Assembly: GCF_009192745.1 (NCBI RefSeq)
Contig: NZ_VTFV01000003.1
Location: 434,001 to 498,000 of the forward strand
Source of the DNA: Arthrobacter citreus
GTDB taxonomy: Bacteria; Actinomycetota; Actinomycetes; Actinomycetales; Micrococcaceae
Direction: 5' to 3'
Length of the DNA: 64,000 bases
Shown here: piece after piece, positions 8,575 to 9,221 of the stretch
Layout: every line of letters starts with the position of its first letter
Numbering within the stretch: the stretch's first letter is position 1
The notes under the pieces: model-generated
Told to the model about the DNA's origin: nothing
Seen by the model: only the letters and a program-made list of their open reading frames with translations
The model's database searches: none
Translations under genes and position numbers: made by a program

Positions 8575-8615
8575 CGGATAGGTCTCAGGACTGCGGCGCC
8601 CGCAGCCCGCGACAC

Positions 8616-8655
8616 AGAAGGCCCCATGGAACCACCGGTTCCCATGGGGCCTTCT
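8616..8655 (+). terminator. Terminator hairpin after ctaA
   Basis: A 14-bp arm (8616-8629) pairs with 8642-8655. The inner GGAACC/GGTTCC continues the stem with one bulged base. It lies about 40 bases after the ctaA stop. Confidence 0.75.
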
Positions 8656-8870
8656 GCGTTCCTGTAGTGGCTGCCTTGCGCTGCGTTGGAACGTGGCTGC
8701 GCTGCGTCGGTTGACCACCCGATGGGGCACTGGGTTGGGCGCTGCCCTCCCGCTGGGTTGGCTGCGTTGGGCGCTGGCCTCGGCCCGGGCGCGCCCGGAG
8801 GTTGAACGAACCCTGCCGGTGCTGAAGTTGTTCGCGCAGGCCTTCGGTCACCCAACCCTGGGGTGCTTCC

Positions 8871-8976
8871 GCATCCTTCGGGGAGATAACGCTGCTTAGG
8901 AGAGGCTTCGGCCAACCTTCGGGGAGGTGACGTCCCTTAGCGCGCCCCAAAGGGACGGGAAGGCACCGAAGGATAC
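8871..8976. repeat. 106-bp MITE-like repeat, copy 1
   Basis: It begins GCATCCTTCGG and ends with the near inverted complement CCGAAGGATAC. It differs from copy 2 at about 11 of 106 positions, by my hand alignment. An inner inverted pair (GGTGACGTCCCTT against AAGGGAC...GGCACC) lets most of the right half fold back on itself. The right end is the first unit of a 41-bp tandem array. No transposase is nearby. Confidence 0.75.
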
Positions 8977-9060
8977 ACGGGCGGCCGTCAAAGGGACGGG
9001 AAGTCCCCGAAGGGTGCACCGGAGGCCGTCAAAGGGACGGGAAGTCACCGAAGGATGCGC
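8948..9060. repeat. 41-bp tandem repeat, about 2.8 units
   Basis: Units start at 8948, 8989 and 9030 with an exact 41-base period. Each opens with CAAAGGGACGGGAAG and continues with a CCGAAGG core. The third copy matches over about 31 bases before diverging. The same 31-base word recurs at 9193-9223 inside the second 106-bp repeat. The units are contiguous, with no spacers, so this is not a CRISPR array. Confidence 0.8.
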
Positions 9061-9115
9061 AGGACGTGCTGGACTGTTGGAAGCGTGGCGCTGCGATGAT
9101 CGCGCTCCGGTCCGG

Positions 9116-9221
9116 GCATCCTTCGGGGAGATGACGCTGTTTAGGAAGGGCTTCGGCCAACCTGTGGGGAGGTGATGTCCCTTCGCGCGCCTCAAAGGGA
9201 CGGGAAGTCACCGAAGGATGC
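9116..9221. repeat. 106-bp MITE-like repeat, copy 2
   Basis: Same orientation as copy 1 and the better preserved of the two. Its 11-bp terminal inverted repeats are perfect (GCATCCTTCGG against CCGAAGGATGC). An inner inverted pair GGTGATGTCCCTT/AAGGGAC...GTCACC is present. It ends 50 bases before the ctaB stop. Confidence 0.75.

Follow-up and report, generated by a model that had tools for sequence, protein, structure and literature searches.

The spacer between ctaA and ctaB in Arthrobacter citreus holds an array of phased 27-bp repeats, and this array probably represents a REP-like family that is paired with a chromosomal gene encoding a fusion of an AbiEi-like part with a DUF559/Vsr-like part. 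Bacterial chromosomes carry few repeats that are commoner than the REP type, and RAYT is the enzyme class so far associated with them; CGTC-tagged REPs are found without any such enzyme (PMC3733652). The combination of arrays and fusion gene resembles the pairs formed by REP repeats and RAYT transposases, and seems not to have been described before. The 64,000-nucleotide stretch of DNA analysed is called the window below, and its genome G000. At the sequence level, the 27-bp unit, its fixed spacing, the ++/−− geometry, dispersal, syntenic conservation and species-specific change of motif were all established, and in many genera the protein family proved to be linked to repeats of its own. Linkage and co-occurrence support the pairing of gene and repeat; that the protein binds and cuts the sites, and that the repeats transpose, is inferred.

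The ctaA–ctaB spacer contains eight phased 27-bp units

Two 106-bp copies, at positions 8871–8976 and 9116–9221 of the window, lie in the ctaA–ctaB spacer, are 90% identical and encode nothing, as the original prediction had it. The natural unit of these repeats is not the 106-bp copy; it is a 27-bp site, A(A/T)CCTTCGGGGAGATAACG(YYSY)TTNG. Each 106-bp copy consists of three phased units in the order ++−, and same-strand units step by exactly 41 bp and then invert across a fixed 7-bp gap (++ −−). The inverted ends that had been predicted are present, but both pairs, terminal and inner, are formed by one and the same 27-bp unit.

A scan with a unit profile located eight units between 8873 and 9219, in the order ++−−−++− and scoring 24–44 bits, and no others in the window. 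Unit 1 (8873–8899, + strand, 44.1 bits, seen in both the profile scan and the sequence) is followed at 41 bp by unit 2 (8914–8940, +, 38.3 bits), which converges across a 7-bp gap with unit 3 (8948–8974, −, 24.3 bits). Unit 4 (8989–9015, −, 28.7 bits) and unit 5 (9030–9056, −, 31.3 bits) each lie 41 bp on from the unit before; both had been missed, so the description as two copies, though real, was incomplete. A second array starts with unit 6 (9118–9144, +, 41.8 bits) and continues 41 bp on with unit 7 (9159–9185, +, 26.6 bits), which is convergent with unit 8 (9193–9219, −, 31.3 bits) across a 7-bp gap. The whole array begins 299 bp after the stop of ctaA (PF02628, COX15-CtaA, E 1e-24) and ends 52 bp after the stop of the convergent gene ctaB (PF01040, UbiA family, E 2e-67).

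The profile was built from 92 units collected by their 41-bp neighbourhood and showed a sharp 27-bp motif followed by a 14-bp linker of low information. When 300 kb of random sequence was scanned with it, nothing scored above 10 bits, and the 28-base end motif occurred four times in the window and not once in 100 shuffles. Chance is therefore excluded as the origin of the window's repeats. A search of Rfam gave no match, only sub-threshold chance matches, and the absence of a known named family with this sequence, noted in the original prediction, is supported. A CRISPR-like array was rejected, because spacers would be longer than the linkers, which measure 14 or 4 bp and, at the centre, 7 bp.

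Two further features were observed in the same spacer. A hairpin resembling an intrinsic terminator (AGAAGGCCCCATGGAACCACCGGTTCCCATGGGGCCTTCT) lies directly after ctaA at 8612–8665, apart from the array, and an imperfect 20-bp direct repeat, CTGGGTTGGGCGCTGCCCTC, with copies 32 bp apart, lies upstream of the array at 8730–8781 and is likely a local duplication.

Geometry of the units across the genus

In all 22 convergent pairs from three genomes (G000, G001 and G014), the starts of the inner + and − units lie 34 bp from each other, leaving the 7-bp gap, and same-strand neighbours in these genomes are separated by the 41-bp step in nearly all cases. Across the genus, start-to-start spacings of the 19-bp core were 41 bp (82 of 104) or 31 bp (10) on the same strand, 42 bp (32 of 53) or 52 bp (8) for convergent cores, and 51 bp (2 of 3) for divergent cores, as read by a motif-based scan that misses weak units; in the few spacings of 82–83 bp, the scan has probably passed over an intervening unit. 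The results showed that the spacing classes 31/41, 42/52 and 51 are offset by roughly one helical turn, with no constraint on linker sequence. Such a pattern would be expected if a protein occupied the sites from one face of the DNA. Unit and spacing are conserved as the linkers drift, and the linkers are unshared between copies within one genome.

The motif itself differs between species, being for example ATCCTTCGTGCAGATAACGGGC in G002, G003, G006, G018, G023 and G024 and ATCTACTGAGCAGATAACGGGCTTATGG in G008, G009 and G019. Local tandem gain is visible in three near-identical units in one array (L079) and in the 5+2 units of another (L077). The latter (L062/L077; G000:C7:133951-134225) is the longest array seen in G000, with five + units (steps of 42, 50, 42 and 41 bp) and two − units at irregular spacings.

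Distribution of the array family

Sequence searches, which are not a whole-genome layout, placed arrays at 14 locations in G000, 13 of them outside the window, and further arrays of the same family were found in G001 (six by the strict pattern), G005, G010 and G014. These dispersed intergenic copies support the REP-like reading in the original prediction, and the placement of arrays at gene ends likewise agrees with the 3′-end location proposed there. The strict convergent pattern was present in three of the 29 genus genomes, the 295 family genomes searched yielded it in no further genus, and a public species-level collection contributed one genome, Arthrobacter sp. Edens01. The array sequence profile reached 17 of the 29 genus genomes. 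Matches in the collection from Micromonospora (L065) and Myxococcales (L066) were rejected as chance, as the profile detected no units in them.

Several arrays sit at the same gene borders in different species with changed motifs. After a hydrolase gene, arrays were found in G000, G001, G005 and G014 and none in G010; the ctaA–ctaB spacer carries arrays in G000, G005 and G010, other motif types in G018 and G007, and none in G014 or G001. When sites with and without arrays were compared at the hydrolase, purL and ctaB loci, presence and absence were seen, the intergenic DNA was too diverged for a junction to be read, and no target duplication with a clean empty site was found. In G014, assembly contigs C8 and C3 end beside arrays (L176, L179 and L180), so the repeats probably break assemblies and the array counts for this genome are probably low. 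A possible other repeat family, GTTCCCACT...GGTGGGGTCACTCCAG...CCAGGAGTG...GTGGGAAC, was noticed in the ctaB 3′ region of G004 and G012 (L124 and L125) and on contig C4 of G000 (L017); this candidate occurs near gene ends in several species.

A gene for an AbiEi-like and DUF559-like fusion protein adjoins the array at the maf locus

The maf locus is the exception to the patchy presence of arrays. By inspection, all 29 genus genomes carry repeats there, as an array or as one or more convergent pairs, and every genome has a motif of its own (type A in G000, type B in G002 and G003). The G006 maf locus (L221) has two motif types, CCTTCGTGCAGATCACGGGC and CCTGTGTGCAGCTCTGGCGGC, side by side in one spacer. 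The array lies between maf and a convergent gene for a protein of about 315 amino acids, which in G000 is P0001 (G000:C5:241879-242820). A tblastn search of the examined loci detected a homolog in 28 of the 29 genomes, none being seen in the stretch from G004, and the gene is broken in G012 and G026.

AbiEi models matched the N-terminal part in 39 of 40 homologs (best E 2.8e-14), a domain-level match only, and the Pfam AbiEi match to the fusion protein is marginal. The C-terminal part matched DUF559 and REase_MTES_1575 in many homologs, and its nearest solved chain is PDB 3hrl (E 0.0015). Because D205, S206, E209, R213, D242, G256, H259 and D268 are invariant in 40 homologs, the nuclease centre is probably intact, and the conserved acidic and histidine residues of PD-(D/E)XK type place this part with the DUF559/Vsr-like nucleases. 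The linked gene is not a known transposase, and no AbiEii toxin partner was apparent among the neighbours at the loci inspected. Phages and viral contigs hardly ever carry the gene, and it occurs on few, non-mobilizable replicons; with the convergent-pair pattern absent from the viral contigs searched, a phage or plasmid origin was rejected.

Three observations at this locus count against the fusion gene as partner of the window's family. The maf gene adjoins only one of the 14 arrays in G000, the array lies only on the 3′ side of the gene, and the motif at the locus, compared by eye, agrees with that of the other arrays in G000 and G003 but differs in several species. The disagreement may reflect further paralogs or old, unrefreshed arrays.

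Most homologs are flanked by their own repeats

G000 has one paralog of the maf-locus protein (35% identity), and this paralog has a different convergent palindrome on either side, ATCGAGATTACAGAAACTGCCCGTTTG and its complement. Among 31 homolog loci, mostly from other genera of the Micrococcaceae, the left and right flanks matched each other in 21, above the 99th percentile of between-locus comparisons; the corresponding rates were 1% between loci and 1.7% for random same-locus flank pairs of equal size. The other 10 homologs have no matching flank pair, which counts against the pairing. Inverted pairs with 20–27 complementary bases of 27 were found in most homolog loci, compared with at most 18 in shuffles. 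The gene also has its own repeat on both sides in two Arthrobacter megaplasmids and in Tsukamurella, a member of another order. In other genera, the gene's own repeat was dispersed in five of six genomes tested (G036, G037, G042, G043 and G047), the sixth (G058) having just the two flanking copies.

This paralog, the gene of a second repeat family, lies at purL in G000, G001, G005 and G010. Its 60-bp palindrome gave 18–23 matches in each of these genomes and in G014, and one or two matches, at gene flanks only, in the 24 other genomes of the genus; the counts are lower bounds, as only the best candidate stretches were scored. All 31 copies measured are exactly 60 bp long. G014 has kept the second-family repeats and has other DNA in place of the gene at purL, a further point against the proposed partnership.

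Alternative explanations for the repeats

The repeats might instead be host regulatory or architectural sites that never move, at which the fusion or another DNA-binding protein organises the chromosome or blocks transcription from one gene end to the next. Strict spacing with free linkers, arrays at the same gene ends across species, and some 14 dispersed arrays located at 3′ ends would all suit such sites. However, the arrays are patchy, being absent from the ctaA–ctaB spacer of the close relatives G014 and G001 and from the hydrolase locus of G010, their motifs change between species, and many unlinked paralog genes carry their own repeat in the manner of selfish or addictive elements. We consider this explanation unlikely. 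An origin as MITEs, or as remnants of a DDE-type or IS200-type transposon, would account for short, dispersed, non-coding elements with inverted ends, and the original prediction had called the repeats MITE-like. That reading was not supported by the comparison of copies, because the linkers are unshared within one genome, the outer ends are neither sharp nor common (2+2, 3+2, 2+3 and 5+2 units), no target duplication was found at the loci compared, where the intergenic DNA is much diverged, and neither an IS nor any other transposon with matching terminal repeats was found among the loci inspected; it is now very improbable.

A third possibility is that the repeats are structural RNA, mainly bidirectional hairpin terminators, with the nuclease gene merely lying between them. 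The evidence for it comes from the second family. Its 60-bp near-perfect palindromes fold at −52.6 kcal/mol and their centres covary (both partners were changed in 10 pairs and in 47 cells, the latter a value reached in none of 500 shuffles), some of the compensatory changes falling between orthologous copies. By heuristic gene calls, 15 of the 24 classified copies lie between convergent genes, mostly within 35 bp of both stops, and three between divergent genes, and at purL the position of the palindrome is occupied in other species by an ordinary terminator. The covariation could, however, arise either from selection or from palindrome correction during replication. The window family folds weakly, and in a 27-pair hairpin 11 pairs changed on both sides against 11.3 in shuffled sequence. 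The + and − units of one array paired no better than units taken from different arrays (inner P 0.06, outer 0.55), and an RNA hairpin as the selected feature of this family was rejected for lack of covariation between + and − units. The convergent 3′-end structure suggested at the outset is not supported for the window family as a simple RNA hairpin, the inner pairs showing no covariation, but may hold for the sister family. Moreover, ctaA has its own hairpin at 8612–8665, and terminators require neither shared sequence, nor 10-bp modular spacing, nor matched copies flanking one gene family. Taken as the explanation of the repeats, structural RNA appears quite improbable.

Relation to known systems and proposed mechanism

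The preferred reading, a REP-like family with the fusion gene as its partner, was compared with described systems. Like REP/BIME elements with their RAYT (TnpA-REP) (PMC3733652, PMC8266576), the repeats are short, intergenic, dispersed, biased to 3′ ends and arranged in inverted pairs or clusters; the type is species-specific, a linked gene is flanked by its own repeat, and repeats outlast a missing gene. In contrast to REPs, the window family has no GTAG (or CGTC) tag beside a 20–40-nt imperfect palindrome, its 27-bp units, which keep to whole helical turns, resemble protein sites on double-stranded DNA and not 20–40-nt hairpins, and the linked gene encodes an AbiEi-like and PD-(D/E)XK fusion instead of an HUH tyrosine (Y1/RAYT) transposase. 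The pair would work like REP/RAYT yet lack the features that define it, the GTAG tag and the tyrosine transposase. The CGTC-tagged REPs are also dispersed palindromes with no RAYT, but their stems are short (8–9 bp) and they occur mainly in Alphaproteobacteria, with no Actinobacteria listed (PMC3733652). In MITEs of DDE/IS elements the terminal inverted repeats are fixed and the copies share their outer ends, whereas here the number of units varies.

As a monomer, AbiEi binds cooperatively to two inverted repeats of 23 bp, separated by 3 bp, and bends the DNA (PMC7319586). The fusion protein shares an AbiEi-like N-terminal part with the antitoxin/repressors Streptococcus AbiEi and M. tuberculosis Rv2827c (PMC7319586), and the sites resemble AbiEi operators in being convergent and inverted, about 23–27 bp long with a short gap, and often present as a pair upstream of the gene. 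Unlike the AbiE system, the protein here carries a fused nuclease and no AbiEii toxin was apparent at the loci inspected, and the sites lie on both sides of the gene and are scattered over the chromosome rather than confined to the promoter. The C-terminal domain has the conserved D, E and H of the DUF559/MTES_1575 Vsr-like nucleases, with PDB 3hrl nearest (E 0.0015). The Vsr-like members described so far have been linked to mismatch repair or to conflict systems (PMC12907096, PMC3710099), whereas no reported member was found with a dispersed repeat family.

By analogy with AbiEi on its 23-bp repeats, one fusion-protein monomer would bind each 27-bp unit, and the whole-turn spacing would set bound monomers on one DNA face, allowing cooperation and DNA bending. 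The nuclease part may then nick or cut at or near a bound repeat, and repair and recombination following the break could copy, renew or spread the repeats much as REPs spread. The repeats would persist at gene 3′ ends, where some might serve as hairpin terminators. More tentatively, and with the balance tipping slightly towards doubt, each AbiEi–DUF559 lineage may maintain and spread its own phased or palindromic repeats, forming a two-part selfish or domesticated element unlike any known transposase. The nuclease role and the continued movement of the repeats are the least certain parts of this scheme.

The AbiEi–DUF559 fusions are an unstudied family that is common in the Micrococcaceae and extends to at least some further actinobacteria. 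A literature search, limited in coverage, returned no paper naming DUF559 and AbiEi together, and the pairing of nuclease and repeat is likely, though not proven, to be novel; its enzyme belongs to another family than RAYT, the known partner of REPs. If the pairing is true, a second, unrelated enzyme family would be associated with dispersed repeats, implying that repeat–enzyme pairs arose more than once. It would also give the widespread hypothetical and DUF559 proteins of actinobacteria a first testable role, and would provide ready-made DNA sites of 27–60 bp, one set per nuclease, for direct tests of binding and cutting.
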